This document shows, one piece after another, positions 5,774-27,872 of a stretch of DNA of 27,872 nt. Position numbers and translations under genes: made by a program. The first letter of the stretch is position 1. Every line of letters starts with the position of its first letter. The stretch is from a virus. Below the pieces are notes generated by a model. It did no database searches. It was not told the origin of the DNA and saw nothing but the letters and a program-made list of their open reading frames with translations. The stretch is taken from IMG/VR virus record IMGVR_UViG_3300048763_000035, positions 1 through 27,872 of that record; one strand, 5' to 3'.

Positions 5774-6028
5774 TTACTTATAATGATCTCTAGCGGATAG
5801 GATAATTATTTTATCTTCGTATATTTCATAAACTAGCCTATGTTCTTGGTCTATGCGTCTTGACCAAGTCTCAATCTCATGGTGTTTAAGATGTTCAGGT
5901 TTTCCGATGCCTTCTCGAGGATTAAGTTTAATACTGCGTACCAATTCGCGAATCTTTTTCGCTTTTTTGGGATCTACTTTTTCCCAATGGTTTATTTCCT
6001 TCTTTGCTAACTTCAGAAAAAAAAGCAT
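5774..6028 (-). CDS. yoeB: YoeB-family mRNA interferase toxin
   Basis: The 84 residues match the length of E. coli YoeB and keep its signature blocks: EGIGKPEHLKH (40-49), WSRRIDQEHRLVYE (55-68) and ARDHYK at the end. The catalytic set of YoeB (Glu46, Arg65, His83, Tyr84) corresponds here to Glu45, Arg64, His82 and Tyr83, so the enzyme looks intact. It should cleave mRNA at the ribosomal A site. The ATG has GAGG 6 bases upstream, inside the antitoxin gene, giving coupled translation. The pair lies antisense between scaffold and coat genes, ten bases from the scaffold stop. Its role could be element maintenance, phage exclusion or abortive infection. Confidence 0.9.
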   Translation of the reverse strand: MLFFLKLAKKEINHWEKVDPKKAKKIRELVRSIKLNPREGIGKPEHLKHHEIETWSRRIDQEHRLVYEIYEDKIIILSARDHYK

Positions 6029-6257
6029 CTATATCCTCTACTAATATTAAATTTTCATTTTTCTTCGCCATTTCAGAGCGTTCTATAATCATTAAAGCAT
6101 TGGGCATATCTAACCAATCATTAGCTTCTGACATTTTATATGCTTGCAGTACTTTCATAGCGTATTTAATTTGCATAGGGATTGAGCGGCATGCAGTGCT
6201 AGCTTCTTCTTTAATCTTTTCATATAGATCATCCGGTAGACTTAATGAATGTGCCAT
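5928..6257 (-). CDS. ParD-like antitoxin
   Basis: The N-terminus MAHSLSLPDDLYEKIKEEAST followed by ACRSIPMQIKYAMKVLQA is the ribbon-helix-helix-like pattern of the ParD-like antitoxin family, in which a short beta strand is followed by 'R(S/T)IxxQI' helices. It should neutralise the YoeB toxin encoded directly downstream and repress the pair's promoter. A GAGG ribosome site lies 6 bases before the ATG. It is unusually long (109 aa against roughly 70-80 for the family as I know it). Its last ~33 codons are read in a second frame through the first 100 bases of the toxin gene, and that tail is basic (KSRSQKSEKDSR). A run of eight T's (minus strand) sits at this overlap. Confidence 0.75.
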   Translation of the reverse strand: MAHSLSLPDDLYEKIKEEASTACRSIPMQIKYAMKVLQAYKMSEANDWLDMPNALMIIERSEMAKKNENLILVEDIDAFFSEVSKEGNKPLGKSRSQKSEKDSRIGTQY

Positions 6258-20509: not shown

Positions 20510-20572
20510 TCAAAAAAAAAGGAGATTGCGGGTCAGAACCCCTGTATGCGAATCAAATGTTGCTGTTGTCAT
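20510..20572 (-). pseudogene. Truncated copy of the 85-aa gene's 5' end
   Basis: An ATG overlapping the 85-aa gene's stop (ATGA) opens MTTATFDSHTGVLTRN and ends after 20 codons at TGA. The 85-aa protein itself begins MTTLTFDTHALIES. The shared DNA covers the ribosome site and first codons (27 of 30 bases identical). It reads as a decayed or partial duplicate. Confidence 0.5.
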
Positions 20573-20581
20573 AATTTCCCC
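20552..20581. repeat. Direct repeat, left copy (partner 20806-20835)
   Basis: Thirty bases beginning ATCAAATGTT and ending GTTGTCATAATTTCCCC recur at 20806-20835 with three mismatches, 254 bases apart. The pair brackets the 85-aa coiled-coil/anchor gene, as expected after a cassette duplication or insertion. Confidence 0.7.
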
Positions 20582-20826
20582 ATCATCTGTAAGAATCCTA
20601 ATATAATAGTACATGTAGTTATTACTGAGCCACCTAATGCTATAAATATTCTTTTTTCTGATTGTGCCATTTCCATTCTGATTTCGGCCATATCGGTCTT
20701 AGTAGCTAAGTTACTTAAATCCATTTCTCTACCGCTTTGTATAGCCCTTACTATAGATTCGGCTTGTTTCTTTGCTATTATTAAAGATTCAATCAAAGCA
20801 TGTGTATCAAATGTTAGCGTTGTCAT
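20569..20826 (-). CDS. 85-aa coiled-coil protein with C-terminal anchor
   Basis: Residues 1-58 form helices including LIIAKKQAESIVRAIQSGR and the marker LATKTDMAEIRMEMAQ. Residues 60-80 are a hydrophobic anchor (IFIALGGSVITTCTIILGFL). The layout of an N-terminal helix with Q(A)ES/ETIV, then L-ATK-D and C-terminal transmembrane segment recurs in three other genes here (21243-21533, 24628-24945, 25184-25594). It resembles DUF1640/CCDC90-like proteins that I recall from Rickettsiales and other intracellular bacteria. AGGGG lies before the ATG. It is the fourth cistron of the minus operon from 21533. Confidence 0.6.
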   Translation of the reverse strand: MTTLTFDTHALIESLIIAKKQAESIVRAIQSGREMDLSNLATKTDMAEIRMEMAQSEKRIFIALGGSVITTCTIILGFLQMMGKL

Positions 20827-20834
20827 AATTTCCC

Positions 20835-21002
20835 CTATTTTTCCCTTTTTTCAGATTTCAAAAATTCCATGTGCTTTGTAATTAAGAGCTTCATATTGTC
20901 ATCCATTTTCTTATTAGAGCGCCAAAACATTAATTCCATTCCTAGGAATATCCCTATAAAACACGCAAACATTTGTAATATATAATGCCATATTGGTAAC
21001 AT
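20835..21002 (-). CDS. 55-aa membrane protein, unknown
   Basis: MLPIWHYILQMFACFIGIF opens a single N-terminal hydrophobic segment (about residues 4-26), followed by a basic helical tail WRSNKKMDDNMKLLITKHME. AGGTGG lies about 9 bases before the ATG. It fits exactly between the WGR gene and the 85-aa gene in the same operon, supporting reality despite its size. Its function is unknown. Confidence 0.6.
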   Translation of the reverse strand: MLPIWHYILQMFACFIGIFLGMELMFWRSNKKMDDNMKLLITKHMEFLKSEKREK

Positions 21003-21015
21003 AGTAAAATACCAC

Positions 21016-21246
21016 CTATTTATTCGTTAAAACCTGAAGGCAATAGCCTCGTTTTTGGCGTACTTCTGACAATTTATCAATAGCCTTTAATGCGTCTTTA
21101 AGAGAATTAAAGGTCTCTATAGCATAGTTGCCCAATCTGCTTTTTAAACCACCCCAGGATTTTATAACCGTTGGCTCGCCAAACAAATTACCTTGTACCG
21201 AGATTATGTAATATCTATTAGGACTAATCCAAATTAATTGTTTCAT
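21016..21246 (-). CDS. Small WGR-domain protein
   Basis: The 76 residues are essentially one WGR-like domain: RYYIISVQGNLFGEPTVIKSWG then LKSRLGNYAIETFNSLKDALKAI and EVRQKRGY. WGR domains contain a 'WG(R)xG' core and a closing 'KxxKGY'. Here the core is WGGLKSRLG and the end KRGYCLQV. Free-standing WGR proteins occur on alphaproteobacterial plasmids and chromosomes. In PARP proteins the domain binds DNA ends and communicates damage. The start overlaps the stop of the 96-aa gene (ATGA), giving coupled translation. A DNA- or nucleic-acid-binding role is inferred. Confidence 0.65.
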   Translation of the reverse strand: MKQLIWISPNRYYIISVQGNLFGEPTVIKSWGGLKSRLGNYAIETFNSLKDALKAIDKLSEVRQKRGYCLQVLTNK

Positions 21247-21533
21247 TTTATATAAGTTACAACACTAAGAATTAAAGTCATTAGCCCCATAGATATGACA
21301 AGATACCATTTTAGGTCTTTTACTTGTTCTCTTAATAAACCTACATCGGTCTTAACATTTCCTATCTCAACCTTAACGGCGGATATTCCCATTGACAAAT
21401 CAGCCTTAGTGGCTAATTTCTCCAATAAATGTTTTATATCATCTTTATTGGATTCAACAATAGTCTCCGCTTGCTCTTCAGTAAAGCCAACGCTGATTAA
21501 TTTCTTTATTATTGTATGTGTATCTTGAAGCAT
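21243..21533 (-). CDS. 96-aa coiled-coil protein with C-terminal anchor
   Basis: An N-terminal helix (TIIKKLISVGFTEEQAETIV) is followed by KLATKADLSMGISAVKVEIG, a heptad stretch GLLREQVKDLKW, and a C-terminal hydrophobic anchor at about residues 76-95 (WYLVISMGLMTLILSVVTYI). The GFTEEQAETIV and LATKADL blocks are those of DUF1640-like coiled-coil proteins. It is the first gene of a minus operon with the WGR, 55-aa and 85-aa genes and has its own strong promoter. Such proteins may form membrane-anchored oligomers; the role in a phage is unknown. Confidence 0.65.
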   Translation of the reverse strand: MLQDTHTIIKKLISVGFTEEQAETIVESNKDDIKHLLEKLATKADLSMGISAVKVEIGNVKTDVGLLREQVKDLKWYLVISMGLMTLILSVVTYIK

Positions 21534-21539
21534 CGTTAT

Positions 21540-21563
21540 ACTAATTACATTGCATTAATTAGT
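21540..21563. promoter_or_regulatory. Operator-like dyad
   Basis: ACTAATTA (21540-21547) and TAATTAGT (21556-21563) are perfect 8-base complements around CATTGCAT. The dyad lies between the -10 box and the start codon of the 96-aa gene, where a repressor would block transcription. Confidence 0.45.
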
Positions 21564-21564
21564 A

Positions 21565-21594
21565 ATTATATCACATCTTTTATAATTTTATCAA
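21565..21594 (-). promoter_or_regulatory. Promoter of the coiled-coil/WGR operon
   Basis: On the minus strand, TTGATA (21589-21594) and TATAAT (21565-21570) are 18 bases apart, with TG one base before the -10 (TGATATAAT), an extended -10. This is among the best promoters in the window. Confidence 0.65.
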
Positions 21595-21598
21595 GTTT

Positions 21599-22099
21599 TT
21601 ATATGTAGCCGTTTAAGTAATCCATAAGGGTGATTTGGTCGGTTTCAGGATTGCCGTCATGATCGAATTTATAGTTTAAATCATCAATGTGATTCTTCTT
21701 ATAGATATCAACATATCTTGTGAATACTTGTTTCTTAGTATCTTCTTGAAGAGTGGGGTTAGTATAAAAAAGATCATGCATGTCTTTTATATGGATTAAC
21801 TCTTTTATACTAAGAGCGCTTTGTATGTTTTTTAAAGATTCATCTAATCTATTTTCAACAAGATTAATACGATTATCAATCGCGGTACAATCAATATTGG
21901 TTTTGTCTATTAGTACTGCAATGCTATTTTTTACTTCTTTTACCACTATTTCGATATTGGTATTAAAAATATTAAACTCAGTTGTTAAGCCATCTATTCT
22001 GGAATGTGACTTTGCTATGCCTTGATCAATAGAATCAGCTTTCTGTTTTTCTATTCTTCTTCTTTCGTCATTTTCTTCTTCAAACAGGTCTTTAGCCAT
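21599..22099 (-). CDS. 166-aa coiled-coil protein, unknown
   Basis: The N-terminus is highly charged (EEENDERRRIEKQKADSID). Long heptad-like helices span residues 25-105 (SRIDGLTTEFNIFNTNIEIV, NRINLVENRLDESLKNI). The C-terminus is Asp/Tyr-rich (DLNYKFDHDGNPETDQ) and looks globular. No membrane segment is seen. AAGG lies 8 bases before the ATG, 17 bases after the barrel gene, so the two share a transcript. The DHDGNPETD stretch resembles a loop that could bind a metal, but this is weak. No family is recognised. Confidence 0.55.
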   Translation of the reverse strand: MAKDLFEEENDERRRIEKQKADSIDQGIAKSHSRIDGLTTEFNIFNTNIEIVVKEVKNSIAVLIDKTNIDCTAIDNRINLVENRLDESLKNIQSALSIKELIHIKDMHDLFYTNPTLQEDTKKQVFTRYVDIYKKNHIDDLNYKFDHDGNPETDQITLMDYLNGYI

Positions 22100-22116: not shown

Positions 22117-22755
22117 TTAAAAACGATAGATCATTCCCACGGATAAAGTTTGATGGGTTATTTTGGCTTTTATGGGTGTTGCAAAAGAGCTACCACTTAT
22201 TGCGGATAGATCAGCACCCGTTGTAGCTAATCCTAGATTCATATACTTATAGCCAAATACCATATCGGATGTTGGCGATATAGATACTTTAGTGCCAATA
22301 CCTATACTATAAGCAGGTGAAAAGTTAGATTCTCCGCCTCTTATACCGTTATTACCACCCATTGCTTGTAAGGTATAGGTCTTATTAAAAGACATCCCAA
22401 GCCCTGCTGTTATAAATGGGGTAGCTATATTATATTTACCTATATCATATGTAACATTAACGAACCCCGCATGTGTTTCAAAATCTTGATTATATAGAGT
22501 GCCCTTTTTGATCTCTTGATATTTAGAATAGTTATTATAAGAGTGTAATTCCACATGAAAAGAATTAGATATTTTTCTACCTACCGATAGATGTAGGTGC
22601 ATAGTTGAATTTGGCTTATCTGAATAATTTTGGCTTTTTAATTTACTAAAAATTGATACGCCCGATTCGGCCTTAACATATGAATTATAATTATCGGCAT
22701 TAGCTAAAAAACAATACGTATTAAGTAACGCTACGATAAGGATTTTATATTTCAT
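22117..22755 (-). CDS. Small outer-membrane beta-barrel protein
   Basis: The chosen start gives MKYKILIVALLNTYCFLANA, a signal peptide cut after ANA, and a mature chain of about 192 residues. The mature part has alternating hydrophobic strands with Gly/Tyr/Ser turns (VELHSYNNYSKY, ATPFITAGLGMSF, AYSIGIGTKVSISP, MVFGYKYMNLGL). It ends TLSVGMIYRF, the C-terminal aromatic signal of BAM-inserted barrels. The size fits an 8-stranded barrel like rickettsial surface proteins. An upstream ATG pair extends the frame without a better ribosome site. In a phage or prophage this would change the host surface, possibly superinfection or host-cell contact. Confidence 0.75.
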   Translation of the reverse strand: MKYKILIVALLNTYCFLANADNYNSYVKAESGVSIFSKLKSQNYSDKPNSTMHLHLSVGRKISNSFHVELHSYNNYSKYQEIKKGTLYNQDFETHAGFVNVTYDIGKYNIATPFITAGLGMSFNKTYTLQAMGGNNGIRGGESNFSPAYSIGIGTKVSISPTSDMVFGYKYMNLGLATTGADLSAISGSSFATPIKAKITHQTLSVGMIYRF

Positions 22756-22823
22756 TTCCATTTCATTATACCATGTAACATATTGATATATAATATATTG
22801 GTTTATATATAAACACAATCGTT

Positions 22824-23231: not shown

Positions 23232-23456
23232 ATGAAAACAAGAACCACCAAGATTACAAAAACCTTCAGTATTCGCGCAGAGCCAGAGTTTTTTGCTACG
23301 CTCAATACTGTAGTAAGTATTAGAAACCGTACTATTTCTAATTTTATATTATTTCTTTTGAGAGAGGTGGTATCAACATATAAACAAAACTATCAAGATA
23401 TTCCTTTGATAGATGAAAAAGATATTCCTTTGATAGATGAAAAAAATACTCCATGA
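23232..23456 (+). CDS. Ribbon-helix-helix-like regulator
   Basis: The N-terminal 55 residues read KTFSIRAEPEFFATLNTVVS then RNRTISNFILFLLREVV. A short basic strand precedes two helices with a turn (RNRT-ISNFI), the layout of CopG/Arc-type ribbon-helix-helix proteins. The C-terminal tail contains a tandem duplicated octapeptide DIPLIDEK. It is divergent from the barrel operon with shared dyad operators between, so it probably represses both. No toxin partner is evident. Confidence 0.55.
   Translation: MKTRTTKITKTFSIRAEPEFFATLNTVVSIRNRTISNFILFLLREVVSTYKQNYQDIPLIDEKDIPLIDEKNTP
23397..23444 (+). repeat. 24-bp exact tandem duplication in the regulator gene
   Basis: Two identical 24-base units (GATATTCC...GATGAAAAA) follow each other without a gap and keep the frame, doubling DIPLIDEK at the protein's C-terminus. 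The perfect identity implies a very recent slip or a contraction/expansion site. Confidence 0.9.
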
Positions 23457-23649: not shown

Positions 23650-23832
23650 TTAAAGCTGCCTTTTTTGCAAGTCCCAAATTTCATATTCCAGATCCTTTAA
23701 GTACTCTGCCTGCTCTTTTAAAAGCTCTAATTGCTTCTCATAATATATTTGCTGCTCTTCTAATAAAGAAATTTCATAGTCCCTGTTAAGCTCGTCTTGT
23801 TGCTCGTCTTCTGCAATTATAATATTTTTCAT
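23650..23832 (-). CDS. 60-aa coiled-coil protein reading outward from the left repeat
   Basis: MKNIIIAEDEQQDELNRDY is followed by an almost continuous heptad helix (LLEEQQIYYEKQLELLKEQ, YLKDLEYEIWDLQKR). It looks like a small dimeric coiled coil. Its ribosome site, start codon and first three codons lie inside the 30-bp repeat copy at 23824-23853, which is shared exactly with recT on the other strand. Transcription would come from the TAGACC/TATAAT promoter at 23856-23884. No family is recognised. Confidence 0.5.
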   Translation of the reverse strand: MKNIIIAEDEQQDELNRDYEISLLEEQQIYYEKQLELLKEQAEYLKDLEYEIWDLQKRQL

Positions 23833-23853
23833 TTTGAAACTCTTTTTAAGGTT
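23824..23853 (-). repeat. 30-bp inverted repeat, left copy
   Basis: Read on the minus strand, the 30 bases begin AACCTTAAAAAGAG and end TCAAAATGAAAAAT. They are identical to 25606-25635 on the plus strand. The copy covers the ribosome site, ATG and first codons of the outward 60-aa gene. Confidence 0.9.
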
Positions 23854-23855
23854 AT

Positions 23856-23884
23856 ATTATACGCCCATATAACATATGGGTCTA
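23856..23884 (-). promoter_or_regulatory. Outward promoter at the left edge of the segment
   Basis: On the minus strand, TAGACC (23879-23884) and TATAAT (23856-23861) are 17 bases apart. Between them is a perfect hairpin or operator, CCCATAT-AAC-ATATGGG (23864-23880). It fires out of the repeat-bounded segment. Confidence 0.5.
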
Positions 23885-23955
23885 GGGGTAATTTAAATTA
23901 ATCAAACAACTCGAATACCCTGTAAGTTAACTCGTAAGATAATCAAAAGCAAGTT

Positions 23956-24006
23956 AAACGTCAAGTAAAACGTTTGCTTTAATTTGAAAAAATTGTAAAT
24001 TATAAT
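23956..24006 (+). promoter_or_regulatory. Recombinase promoter and upstream dyad
   Basis: TTTAAT (23978-23983) and a perfect TATAAT (24001-24006) are 17 bases apart. Directly upstream, AAACGT (23956-23961) and ACGTTT (23970-23975) form a dyad next to the -35 box that may bind the recombinase or a regulator. Confidence 0.5.
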
Positions 24007-24026
24007 AAATTATTACAAAAGGTATG

Positions 24027-24626
24027 ATGGCATTAATAGGATATGCTAGAGTTTCTACTTCGGAACAAAATTTAGATCATCAGGTGGATGCCTTAGAAAA
24101 GGCAGGATGTATAAAAATCTTCAAAGAAAAGGCTAGTGGTAAGTCTGTTAAAAATCGCCCTGTTCTTCAAGAGTGTTTAAATTATCTAAGAGAGGGGGAT
24201 ATTTTAACGGTAACACATAGCGACCGTATCTCTCGATCAGTACTAGATGCTGCAAAAATGATTGCAGACTTTAAGGATAAAAAAATACATTTCAAAAGTT
24301 TGACAGAGCCTTTTGATACTAATGACCCAAATGGGGAGATGGTATTTAATATAATGATGTCTATTAGTCAAAGACAGCGTCAAACTATTAGTGAGCGTAC
24401 TCTTGCGGGATTGGCAGCGGCAAGAGCAAGGGGGCGTTGTGGGGGGCGACCCTTTCAATTATCACCAGAAAGTACGAAATCATTGTTAGCTTTACATGCT
24501 ACTGGAACGCCCATATATGAAATTGCAAAAATGTTTAAAATAACTACAGTTACAGTTTACCAATATATTAATAGAGCTAAGATTGATGGCACTTATCCAA
24601 CAAAAAACCAAAATCAGGAAAAATAA
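24027..24626 (+). CDS. Serine recombinase, resolvase/invertase type
   Basis: The 199-aa protein starts IGYARVSTSEQNLDHQ with the nucleophile at Ser10. A REGDILTVTHSDRISRS block follows, with Arg67 and Arg70 in place of the catalytic arginines. The long E helix (FNIMMSISQRQRQTISERT) leads to RARGRCGGRPF, and a C-terminal helix-turn-helix occupies about 155-190 (TGTPIYEIAKMFKITTVTVY). The length fits small invertases (Hin, Gin) and resolvases rather than large serine integrases. The second of two adjacent ATGs has AAAGG at better spacing. Its placement inside a 30-bp inverted repeat points to inversion, with resolution of an element as the alternative. Confidence 0.9.
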   Translation: MALIGYARVSTSEQNLDHQVDALEKAGCIKIFKEKASGKSVKNRPVLQECLNYLREGDILTVTHSDRISRSVLDAAKMIADFKDKKIHFKSLTEPFDTNDPNGEMVFNIMMSISQRQRQTISERTLAGLAAARARGRCGGRPFQLSPESTKSLLALHATGTPIYEIAKMFKITTVTVYQYINRAKIDGTYPTKNQNQEK

Positions 24627-24627
24627 T

Positions 24628-24945
24628 ATGAGACAAGAACCAGGACAAGATAAAAAACCTAAACGAGTTTACAAAACAGAGCCGAAAAAGGGTGCGGCTA
24701 AACAAACTAGACGTGACAACAATTTGAATATGGATATAAGCAACTTAGTTACTAAGGAGTATTTAGATAAAAAACTAGAGCCTTTTATTACCAAGGAGTA
24801 TTTAGATGTAAAATTGCAATCCTTAGAATATAAACTGAAATTTGAAATAATTAAATGGATTATCGGCATACAAATTACCGGAATAACCGTCATGACAGGA
24901 ATTATAATTACCGTATTAAAAGTTTTTTTAGGTAAACTTTTATAA
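24628..24945 (+). CDS. 105-aa coiled-coil/anchor protein
   Basis: A strongly basic N-terminus (residues 1-30) precedes NMDISNLVTKEYLDKKLEPF and a second TKEYLDVKL. A C-terminal anchor follows at about 76-100 (IKWIIGIQITGITVMTGIII and on). The motif DISNxVTKEYLDxKL and the anchor pattern WIIGxxITGxTxMTG are shared with the protein at 25184-25594 (WILGSAITGFTGMTG), so these are paralogues on either side of a regulator gene. An AGGA ribosome site lies 9 bases upstream, and an earlier start inside the recombinase is less likely. Confidence 0.6.
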   Translation: MRQEPGQDKKPKRVYKTEPKKGAAKQTRRDNNLNMDISNLVTKEYLDKKLEPFITKEYLDVKLQSLEYKLKFEIIKWIIGIQITGITVMTGIIITVLKVFLGKLL

Positions 24946-24973
24946 AAAATCGTGAAAAAATGAAAAATAACTA

Positions 24974-25023
24974 TTGACCACATATATTATATATACTATA
25001 TTGACTCTATATAATATATAGAG
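24974..25023 (+). promoter_or_regulatory. Promoter and 19-bp operator of the regulator gene
   Basis: TTGACC (24974-24979) and TATATT (24997-25002) are 17 bases apart. CTCTATATA-A-TATATAGAG (25005-25023) is a perfect palindrome covering the transcription start and the GAGG ribosome site, ideal for autorepression by the small protein encoded next. Confidence 0.55.
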
Positions 25024-25029
25024 GTAACA

Positions 25030-25206
25030 ATGATTCAAAGAAGGACTATAATAGTCGTCAAGTCGACTGCGGCACGTTTACGAAGATTTAAATTAGATCA
25101 CGATATAACGTATGATGAGGCTATCACTTTATTACTAGATTCATTTAAAGAATATCAAAAAATTATAAGCACCGAGGTCTGCAATGATAACACCGAAAGA
25201 CAATAA
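25030..25206 (+). CDS. 58-aa ribbon-helix-helix-like regulator
   Basis: The chain MIQRRTIIVVKSTAARLRRF has a basic beta strand (RTIIVVK) followed by two helices (TAARLRRFKLDHD, TYDEAITLLLDSFKEYQK), the ribbon-helix-helix layout. GAGG lies 5 bases before the ATG within a palindromic operator. The last 23 bases overlap the next gene's start, coupling translation. It probably represses its own operon, which reads on into the coiled-coil gene and then recT. Confidence 0.6.
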   Translation: MIQRRTIIVVKSTAARLRRFKLDHDITYDEAITLLLDSFKEYQKIISTEVCNDNTERQ

Positions 25207-25594
25207 TATTGGTAAAAGAGAGGTAATCACATATCTTGTGAGTAGGGGTATAGATATTAAGGCTGCCCAACGTATCATGAAAGAAATAAAGAAACAGAAA
25301 ATAGGTAATATTGATATAAGTAACTTCGTTACCAAAGAATATTTGGATATGAAATTGGCCGTTGTGAAGGCGGAAGTTAAGGCGGAATTTGCGGAAGTTA
25401 GGGCGGAATTTGCGGAAGTTAGGGCGGAATTTAGGGCGGAATTTGCGGAAGTTAGGGCGGAATTTGCGGAAGTTAGGAAAGAAATGTACCAAATGGAAAA
25501 AAGGCTTATCCTATGGATTTTAGGAAGTGCCATAACTGGCTTTACAGGAATGACGGGGGTAATGATTGCAGTATTAAAATTTTATTTAGATTAA
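25184..25594 (+). CDS. 136-aa heptad-repeat coiled-coil/anchor protein
   Basis: Residues 10-36 form a helix (REVITYLVSRGIDIKAAQRI). DISNFVTKEYLDMKLAVV leads into an AEVRAEF heptad repeat from about 63 to 98, and a C-terminal anchor spans 108-132 (ILWILGSAITGFTGMTGVM and on). The heptads give a rigid rod that could vary in length by slippage of its 21-base coding unit. GAGG lies about 6 bases before the ATG. It is the paralogue of the 105-aa protein upstream and the gene immediately before the right inverted repeat and recT. Confidence 0.65.
   Translation: MITPKDNNIGKREVITYLVSRGIDIKAAQRIMKEIKKQKIGNIDISNFVTKEYLDMKLAVVKAEVKAEFAEVRAEFAEVRAEFRAEFAEVRAEFAEVRKEMYQMEKRLILWILGSAITGFTGMTGVMIAVLKFYLD
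25370..25477 (+). repeat. 21-base tandem repeat encoding heptads
   Basis: The unit GCGGAAtttGCGGAAgttAGG (AEFAEVR) is repeated about five times with one partial 12-base unit (RAEF). The near-identity implies recent expansion. Each gain or loss of a whole unit changes the coiled-coil rod by one heptad. Confidence 0.85.
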
Positions 25595-25605
25595 TAGACT
25601 AAACC

Positions 25606-25635
25606 AACCTTAAAAAGAGTTTCAAAATGAAAAAT
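25606..25635 (+). repeat. 30-bp inverted repeat, right copy
   Basis: This is the perfect inverted partner of 23824-23853. It contains the ribosome site, ATG (25627) and first three codons of recT, so the two outward genes start identically (MKN). Confidence 0.9.
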
Positions 25636-26631
25636 GAATTAATACAAACTCAAGCTCCATTACCTGTGCAATACAATATGTTTGAGGCAATGGATAAAGC
25701 TTATAAATTTGCTGAACTAGTAGCAAAATCCGATATAATACCAGATATTTATAAAAACAAACCTGCAAATTGCTTTCTTGCAATAAATACAGCCTTTAGA
25801 ATGAATCTTGACCCTTTTTTAGTCATGCAAAATACTGATATTATTCAAGGTAGGCCGGGAATAAAGGCAACTTTTGCAATCGCTTTAGCTAATCAAAGTC
25901 GTATTTTTTCTGATAATATGACTTATATAGTAGATGATAAGAAGAGCAAAGAATTTTTCACAGAAAGAAAAAAAATAGAATGGATTACAGATAAAACTGG
26001 GAAAAAAATTCGAACAGAAACACTTATTCCAGACAAAAAAATATTACAAGATATAACAGTTACTGCTACTGCTATTCTTAGAAAAGGAGGCAAAGCTATA
26101 TCTTCTACAGTAAGTATGGAAATGGCTTTTAAAGAAGAATGGACAAAAAATCCTAAATACGAATCAATGCCTCTACATATGCTCACATATAGAGCGGCTA
26201 CTTTTTTAATTAAAACACATTGTCCTGAAATATTGTTTGGAATGCATACAACAGATGAATTAGAAGACATACAATTTTCTAAAATAAAGAACATTACCCC
26301 TGAATCTCAACCTCTGTCTTCAACAGAGCCTAAACCTAGTGACGTATTTGACCATCCATCTGGATTTATCTTTATTGAGCTAGACGGTAGAAAAATTCTA
26401 CTAGAAGATGCTGATAAAGTGACAACGTATATAGGTGAGAAAATACAAAACATCACAACTGAATCGGGTATTGAAAAGTTTAGAAAATGGAAAGAACTTA
26501 ACGATAAGGATTTTAGGCGTTTTTCTAAAAACAATAGAGATGATGCCCTTGATTTAGCCAATAGCTTTAAAGCGATAGAGAGTATTGTTATGAAGAAAGA
26601 TATGTCTTCAGTGGAGGCAGAAAATGAATAG
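25627..26631 (+). CDS. recT: RecT-family single-strand annealing protein
   Basis: The 334-aa protein has the RecT pattern: ANCFLAINTAFRMNLDPF near residue 47, NTDIIQGRPGIKATFAIALA near 69, an ITVTATAILRKGGK strand, and the diagnostic MLTYRAATFLIKTHCPEILF followed by TTDELEDI. It would anneal single-stranded DNA during phage recombination. After about residue 240 the chain diverges from typical RecT and adds a basic/acidic C-terminal domain. Its start lies in the right 30-bp repeat. The next gene overlaps by eight bases, so it is co-translated with the Gp157-like protein. Confidence 0.8.
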   Translation: MKNELIQTQAPLPVQYNMFEAMDKAYKFAELVAKSDIIPDIYKNKPANCFLAINTAFRMNLDPFLVMQNTDIIQGRPGIKATFAIALANQSRIFSDNMTYIVDDKKSKEFFTERKKIEWITDKTGKKIRTETLIPDKKILQDITVTATAILRKGGKAISSTVSMEMAFKEEWTKNPKYESMPLHMLTYRAATFLIKTHCPEILFGMHTTDELEDIQFSKIKNITPESQPLSSTEPKPSDVFDHPSGFIFIELDGRKILLEDADKVTTYIGEKIQNITTESGIEKFRKWKELNDKDFRRFSKNNRDDALDLANSFKAIESIVMKKDMSSVEAENE

Positions 26632-27154
26632 GAGGCTAGTAATTTACAAGGTATTTGAAGCATGCGATCTATATAATCATATGCGTGATAAGTTAGAAAT
26701 TGAGCCTATATCTATGGATGATATAGATGTAAAGGCAGCGCCAACGCAAAATGTACTACAAAGATTTCAGGATGTTGTTAGTGCCTTGATCTCAATTGAG
26801 AACGAAGAAAGGTGCATGTTAGGGGCTATAAAGATACAATTACGTAATCTTAAATCTCGTAAAAAGACAATAGAGAATAGAATTCAAAATACACGTGCCA
26901 CCTTATTTAATGCTATGGATATATGCGATATAGAAAAGATTGAATATCCTGTGGGTAATGTTAATACAAGCCTATCGCCTCCGAAATTGTGTATTGAAGA
27001 TGAACGGGCTTTATTAGCTAAACATCCTGAATATCGTATTATTAAAGACCCTGAAGTAGATAAAAAGTCTTTACTTGATGATGTAAAAAATGGAGTATTG
27101 ATCGATGGTGTTTCTCTACAGCAGACTAAAATTATTACTATAAGGAGAAAATAA
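26624..27154 (+). CDS. Siphovirus Gp157-like protein
   Basis: The 176 residues show the Gp157 plan: an N-terminal helical region (YKVFEACDLYNHMRDKLE, then EERCMLGAIKIQLRNLKSRK), a central ENRIQNTRATLFNAMDI coil, a beta stretch (GNVNTSLSPPKLCIEDE) and the closing IIKDPEVDKKSLLDDVKNG with GVSL. This family travels with phage recombination genes. GGAGG lies 7 bases before the ATG inside recT. The biochemical role of Gp157 is poorly defined, and a recombination accessory function is inferred from its partner. Confidence 0.8.
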   Translation: MNRRLVIYKVFEACDLYNHMRDKLEIEPISMDDIDVKAAPTQNVLQRFQDVVSALISIENEERCMLGAIKIQLRNLKSRKKTIENRIQNTRATLFNAMDICDIEKIEYPVGNVNTSLSPPKLCIEDERALLAKHPEYRIIKDPEVDKKSLLDDVKNGVLIDGVSLQQTKIITIRRK

Positions 27155-27527: not shown

Positions 27528-27649
27528 TATTTCAAATACTTTATAACTAATAATTATAAACATCTATTATCCAGACCATATCATAAAAGATTTTTTCTGC
27601 ATACCAATAGAGGTTATACCTTGGTTTGCAAGAGTGATTTGAAATTATA

Positions 27650-27720
27650 ACTTTTTATAATTATTTAATATAAGGAGGGATTTTGCTTGACTTATGGGCA
27701 AAAAAATATCTCCTAGTAAG
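27650..27720 (+). repeat. Direct repeat, first copy
   Basis: A 71-base segment matches 27800-27870 at a constant 150-base offset. The last 39 bases (27682-27720) are identical to 27832-27870, and the first 18 (ACTTTTTATAATTATTTA) are too. Each copy has an AGGAGG-type ribosome site in the middle. Confidence 0.85.
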
Positions 27721-27872
27721 TTACAACACAAAACATAGGAGATATATGAATAATTGCAATCTAAATCAAAAACCCAACACCCGTCAAGTTAAATTTACTA
27801 CTTTTTATAATTATTTATTAGGAGGGGTAAATTTGCTTGACTTATGGGCAAAAAAATATCTCCTAGTAAGCT
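27683..27872 (+). CDS. Unidentified frame running off the window end
   Basis: An in-frame TTG (27683) preceded by AAGGAGG, and an ATG (27746) preceded by AGGAG, both open a frame without stops to the window edge. From the ATG the frame reads MNNCNLNQKPNTRQVKF and then TFYNYLLGGVNLLDLWAKKY. The block LLDLWAKKYLLVS is repeated because the DNA repeat of 150 bases equals 50 codons. The frame may be a repeat-containing gene or an accidental frame across regulatory repeats. It is not recognised. Confidence 0.3.
   Translation, partial: MLDLWAKKYLLVSYNTKHRRYMNNCNLNQKPNTRQVKFTTFYNYLLGGVNLLDLWAKKYLLVS
27706..27745 (+). promoter_or_regulatory. 10-bp hairpin masking a ribosome site
   Basis: ATATCTCCTA (27706-27715) and TAGGAGATAT (27736-27745) pair perfectly around a 20-base loop. 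The right arm carries AGGAG immediately before the ATG at 27746. The left arm recurs at 27856-27865 in the second repeat copy. Confidence 0.5.
27800..27870 (+). repeat. Direct repeat, second copy at the window edge
   Basis: The second copy of the 27650-27720 repeat. It differs mainly around the ribosome site (TTAGGAGGGGTAAA against ATATAAGGAGGGAT). The array may continue beyond the window. Confidence 0.85.

Follow-up and report, generated by a model that had tools for sequence, protein, structure and literature searches.

An uncultured tailed-phage contig of 27,872 nt, whose full length is called the window here, contains a 1752-bp segment that encodes a small serine recombinase and lies between the two arms of a perfect 30-bp inverted repeat. 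With modest confidence, we read this locus as a putative Hin-like invertible promoter cassette with diverged sites, inversion of which would place a promoter in front of recT, the gene of a single-stranded DNA-annealing protein. The locus and its neighbors comprise the following features:

23650–23832, minus strand: 60-aa coiled-coil-like gene, the first to the left of the segment (open reading frame; no family match)
23824–23853, minus strand: left arm of the perfect 30-bp inverted repeat, with leader, ribosome site, ATG and codons 2–3 of the 60-aa gene
23854–25605, no strand assigned: putative invertible segment between the arms, 1752 bp
23856–23884, minus strand: promoter-like TAGACC-17-TATAAT, directed outward and abutting the left arm (10/12 consensus)
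24024–24626, plus strand: small serine recombinase, 200 aa, invertase-like (Pfam/PHROG, alignment, solved structures)
24628–24945, plus strand: 105-aa coiled-coil-like protein with a C-terminal hydrophobic segment (open reading frame; no convincing family match in Pfam or PHROG)
24974–25023, plus strand: promoter-like TTGACC-17-TATATT belonging to the 58-aa gene; its two AT-rich palindromic elements resemble the one in the left promoter
25030–25206, plus strand: 58-aa probable ribbon-helix-helix regulator, a weak assignment (RHH_10, BfmA N-terminus)
25184–25594, plus strand: 136-aa CCDC90-like coiled-coil protein (PF07798, E = 5e-5, below cut-off)
25606–25635, plus strand: right arm of the repeat, with leader, ribosome site, ATG and codons 2–3 of recT
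25627–26631, plus strand: recT (ssDNA-annealing protein), the first gene to the right of the segment (PF03837, PHROG 561)
26624–27154, plus strand: Gp157/Mu Gam-like gene (PF05565, 2e-16; PHROG 253, 2e-17)

The two arms run in opposite directions, are spaced 1752 bp apart and agree in 30/30 bases, which bears out the perfect inverted repeat claimed in an earlier note on this DNA. In simulated sequences that preserve the local base context of the window, the longest exact inverted repeat had a mean length of 14.9 bp and a maximum of 18 bp (100 trials); a perfect repeat of 30 bp is far beyond chance. A third copy of the arm (24-bp core, up to three mismatches) was absent from the window, where 0 are expected. 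The identity spans from 2 bp past the −10 hexamer through codon 3. It contains AACCTTAAAAAGAGTTTCAAAATGAAAAAT, that is, the leader, a weak ribosome site (AAGAG) and ATG AAA AAT (Met-Lys-Asn), and each arm does carry the ribosome site, start codon and first codons of an outward gene, as had been proposed. Within the arm, a possible site is centered on GA (positions 12–13) with AAAAA and GTTTC as flanks, and its dyad symmetry is modest (6–7/12). A degenerate third arm at 24945–24968, after the 105-aa gene, was considered and rejected, as its 19/24 matches are at chance level (random best mean 17, up to 20). The idea that the repeat represents transposon ends was also dropped, and no target-site duplication was visible by eye in the flanks.

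The same phage is represented by a second independent IMG/VR contig, 3300014501_000011 (36,273 bp, 99.7% identical), which aligns to all but the last 22 bases of the window in a single alignment. Its locus has the identical structure in the identical orientation, and therefore the repeat is unlikely to be an assembly artefact. Three substitutions distinguish the two loci, namely two synonymous ones in the recombinase and one Ile-to-Thr exchange in the 105-aa protein. Because the termini of the 36,273-bp contig overlap by 97 bp, the phage genome is about 36.2 kb long and probably circular or circularly permuted. Both assemblies break in a repeat region at 27639–27870, where two copies of an 82-bp sequence, 150 bp apart, are 87% identical, and the sister contig both starts and ends there with its 97-bp overlap. 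The approximately 8.3 kb that it carries beyond the window include a terminase, a DnaA_N-domain replication gene, a possible VRR-NUC nuclease and overlapping Gly/Ser/Asp/Tyr-rich low-complexity frames. Elsewhere in the window, a YoeB-like toxin gene with an RHH/ParD-like antitoxin upstream is found amid structural genes (5774–6257), and a beta-barrel outer-membrane-like protein is encoded at 22117–22818 (PF13505, below cut-off).

At the left edge of the segment, the earlier note had placed a TAGACC/TATAAT promoter at 23856–23884. Such a promoter-like site is present (TAGACC-17-TATAAT, 23884–23856 on the minus strand); it stops 2 bp short of the left arm, and a transcript would begin within the arm. 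Its spacer is a perfect, operator-like palindrome, CCCATAT-GTT-ATATGGG, which matches CATATRTTATATR with 0 mismatches. In the promoter of the 58-aa gene, CATATATTATATA is placed similarly to the palindrome of the left promoter, and a second AT-rich palindrome follows past the −10 hexamer. The CATATRTTATATR pattern has two exact occurrences and four when one mismatch is allowed, three of them in the segment (0.96 expected). The right edge was free of plus-strand promoter-like sequence of at least 9/12 from 25341 to the right arm (265 bp), and the promoter itself is not duplicated at both arms. Judged from its sequence, recT in the sequenced orientation is without a promoter of its own close by. 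A promoter at the left arm and none close before the right arm count for a promoter swap.

According to the proposed mechanism, the recombinase encoded by the cassette would bind both 30-bp arms and reversibly invert the intervening 1.75 kb. In the sequenced orientation, the left-edge promoter would drive the 60-aa coiled-coil gene only, and recT and the Gam-like gene would form the distal part of a rightward operon that begins at the 58-aa regulator. In that case, recT would be read from the 58-aa gene unit or from still further upstream. The Gp157/Gam-like gene overlaps the end of recT and presumably belongs to the same operon. After inversion, the left-edge promoter would stand against recT with the leader, start codon and first codons identical, and the regulator operon would read into the 60-aa gene. 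In the inverted form, GGGCGTATAATAT would thus lie next to the arm and recT (GAATTAATAC...), and the 60-aa gene would be linked to where the 136-aa gene ends. When the inversion was performed in silico, both arms were regenerated exactly, leaders and reading frames stayed intact at both ends, and approximately 23 bp separated the −10 hexamer from the ATG of recT. The relocation of the promoter to a position just upstream of the recT start, which had been predicted earlier, was thereby reproduced in silico. For the rest, we infer that the enzyme acts on the arms, that the promoters work and that the level of RecT changes. Because AT-rich palindromes are common to both promoters, our guess is that the 58-aa protein might repress both of them via the shared palindrome.

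The segment had been described as holding a serine recombinase and a ribbon-helix-helix regulator. The recombinase is supported by both Pfam and PHROG. The regulator is weakly supported: the 58-aa protein matches RHH_10 with E = 0.024 and the BfmA N-terminus with E = 0.0016, and its single-sequence AlphaFold model is all-helical, with the beta strand missing. The 136-aa protein has in-frame repeats and a C-terminal hydrophobic segment. To the right of the segment, the recT product has a RecT domain (PF03837, 7e-6, 26.2 bits against a cut-off of 24; PHROG 561, 5e-51). Several coiled-coil-like proteins are encoded to the left of the segment (20569–22099) and within it (24628–25594); some are CCDC90-like (PF07798) and several have a C-terminal hydrophobic segment. 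Just ahead of the recombinase gene, at 23950–23973, a 12-bp unit is directly repeated in tandem (CAAGTTAAACGT/CAAGTAAAACGT) and may serve as an accessory or operator site. A perfect 24-bp tandem duplication is located at 23395–23442, at the end of a gene for a 74-aa possible Arc-like repressor.

The recombinase consists of a catalytic domain (Pfam Resolvase, PF00239, 5e-41) and a C-terminal helix-turn-helix (HTH_7, PF02796), and the best-fitting PHROG annotation is DNA invertase (2e-67). With 200 aa, it has the architecture of a small serine recombinase and does not have the long C-terminal DNA-binding region of large serine integrases. The catalytic or invariant residues Arg8, Ser10, Arg44, Asp66, Arg67 and Arg70 are kept in the alignment. 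Among solved structures, Gin scored 133 bits, gamma-delta resolvase 94 and Sin 90. In a tree with 44 relatives, every dix-flanked row fell into one 27-row clade (support 100/99), and the phage recombinase was placed on a long branch outside this dix-site (Hin/Gin/Cin) invertase clade. The assumption of an ordinary Hin/Gin-type invertase agrees with the nearest solved relative, Gin; it is weakened by the position outside the invertase clade and by arms that do not match the crossover sites of that clade. Since both clade and site were tested with this outcome, the cassette cannot be filed in the Din family.

We searched for crossover sites with a matrix for which 14 natural sites were the basis; left out one at a time, these score 18–31. 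The arms do not match the dix-type 26-bp site (AAACC-NN-GGTTT), and the best score in the genome, 11.5, was reached in 27% of random genomes. Within the window, the sequence at 27609–27634 (AGAGGTTATACCTTGGTTTGCAAGAG) comes closest to classical phage invertase sites, but its score was at random level and it was discarded. A Fis-consensus site was not found in the segment using a simple core pattern, from which the Fis of the host may differ. If the enzyme acts on the arms, its specificity must differ, and its accessory factors probably do so too; the use of the arms by the recombinase is the weakest link of the inversion hypothesis. The recombinase gene follows approximately 170 bp after the left arm, and in surveyed phage loci with upstream sites the distance is approximately 70–150 bp. 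An inverted repeat adjoins the recombinase gene in about 20 of the 49 surveyed loci of relatives, mostly of the AAACC-NN-GGTTT type. Among the surveyed phage and plasmid loci of relatives outside the clade, a comparable repeat was absent, and one Tn3-transposon-linked gene has weaker repeats. The alphaproteobacterial relatives likewise had no comparable repeat, and the few repeats found there resemble transposon ends or chance. One 29/30 inverted repeat near a recombinase (locus L180) was rejected as apparently coincidental; the repeat is rich in A, and one of its arms falls within the end of a parA-like gene.

The opposite orientation was not seen in either of the two contigs, and when IMG/VR was scanned for exact copies of the 24-bp arm core and of two boundary sequences, the sister contig was the sole hit. 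Apart from this contig, no close relatives of the recombinase were present in viral contigs, and none in genome contigs. A homologous locus was not found in the collections searched. The inverted arrangement could not be compared in related genomes, because the RecT relatives are without a neighboring recombinase of this kind. Of 11 further records with portal relatives, a single one encodes a distant recombinase, and this does not adjoin the recT of that record. The closest annotated RecT/Bet relative is that of the Megaira phage MAnkyphage_25.80 (39% over 80% of the protein), and therefore a host of the Candidatus Megaira kind, a rickettsial symbiont, seems possible from sequence relatedness. 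In MAnkyphage_25.80, a CCDC90-like gene and similar coiled-coil-like genes are found near recT; unlike in the phage studied here, an exonuclease precedes the annealing protein there, and a recombinase of this kind is absent nearby. The Burkholderia phages KS14 and FLC5 have Gin-like recombinases 43–44% identical to this one, but an inverted repeat around the recombinase gene of FLC5 was not found.

Of the other explanations, the main rival is that the recombinase is a dimer resolvase of a plasmid-like prophage, with its site in the 170 bp before the gene, and that the arms are not its substrate. These 170 bp, in which the 12-bp tandem direct repeat is located, could hold a multi-part res site of the Tn3-type or plasmid resolvase kind, which would be expected as a single copy per genome, and an integrase was not seen among the open reading frames of the 36-kb sister genome. 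KS14, with a recombinase 43% identical to this one, also lacks a tyrosine integrase, and its prophage is a plasmid (PMC3091744), and several alphaproteobacterial and plasmid relatives adjoin ParA or Tn3 transposase genes. We nevertheless consider a resolvase unlikely: ParA was not recognised among the phage open reading frames, the nearest solved relatives are invertases and not resolvases, and a perfect, unique repeat that brackets exactly the recombinase gene would be left unexplained. Somewhat less probable still is that the leader and start of recT were duplicated and placed in the opposite direction before the 60-aa gene, for co-regulation or for nothing, without any inversion. The identical stretch does correspond to a functional unit of leader, ribosome site and Met-Lys-Asn, and the weak resemblance at 24945–24968 would point the same way, though it is within chance. 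However, such a duplication sits poorly with 30/30 identity when most other repeats of at least comparable length in this genome have diverged, with the exact placement on either side of the recombinase gene, and with a promoter that was not copied along.

A cassette that inverted formerly but has become fixed, through an inactive enzyme or the lack of a cofactor, would agree with the shared orientation of the two contigs and with unusual residues in otherwise conserved motifs of the recombinase (THSDRISRS, SQRQRQ). The intact catalytic residues, the purely synonymous substitutions in the recombinase and the perfectly preserved arms make this very improbable. We favor a functional inversion cassette because the repeat brackets exactly a unit with an invertase-like recombinase whose catalytic residues are kept, and because the arm distance, the segment length and the internal promoter and recombinase resemble known systems; the synonymous nature of both recombinase substitutions was also counted for it. 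Arms with modest dyad symmetry and without the crossover consensus, the lack of a Fis site, an enzyme from outside the clade, the single orientation and the absence of a comparable repeat in the surveyed relatives outside the clade count against inversion. Regarding the phase-variation switch originally proposed, the anatomy (internal recombinase, unique arms, abutting promoter) stands, and both contigs display one orientation only. Inversion is the best of the readings considered and is plausible. More tentatively, and with considerable doubt, the locus may be a self-contained, Fis-independent cassette with its own sites and its own repressor that sets the expression of the annealing and Gam-like proteins and splits the phage population into recombination-high and recombination-low particles.

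In the Hin/hix flagellar switch of Salmonella, a promoter turns together with a segment of approximately 1 kb (PMC3798978), and the P segment of e14 comprises 1797 bp (PMC12529663). Like Hin/hix, the candidate described here combines a small serine recombinase, a segment of 1–2 kb, short inverted sites, and a promoter and the recombinase inside. In contrast to Hin/hix, outward phage genes are served at both ends, a ribosome site and start codon lie within the arms, a hix-like core and a Fis enhancer were not found, and inversion is a candidate only. A phage-borne invertase beside inverted sites is also known from Mu Gin, P1/P7 Cin, e14 Pin and p15B Min, but those systems switch tail-fibre coding sequence, whereas the cassette described here would switch the transcription of a DNA-recombination gene, and its sites and clade differ. 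The phage inversion systems that we found in the literature act on tail-fibre or receptor-binding genes (PMC12529663; PMC6109161). In the open-access literature, we found no report of an invertible switch on recT, on early phage genes or on a phage annealing protein, in agreement with the earlier statement that none had been described. If the proposed inversion is true, a new site specificity would be added to those known among small serine recombinases, and a phage would phase-vary its own DNA recombination, and perhaps also the rate of genome mosaicism.
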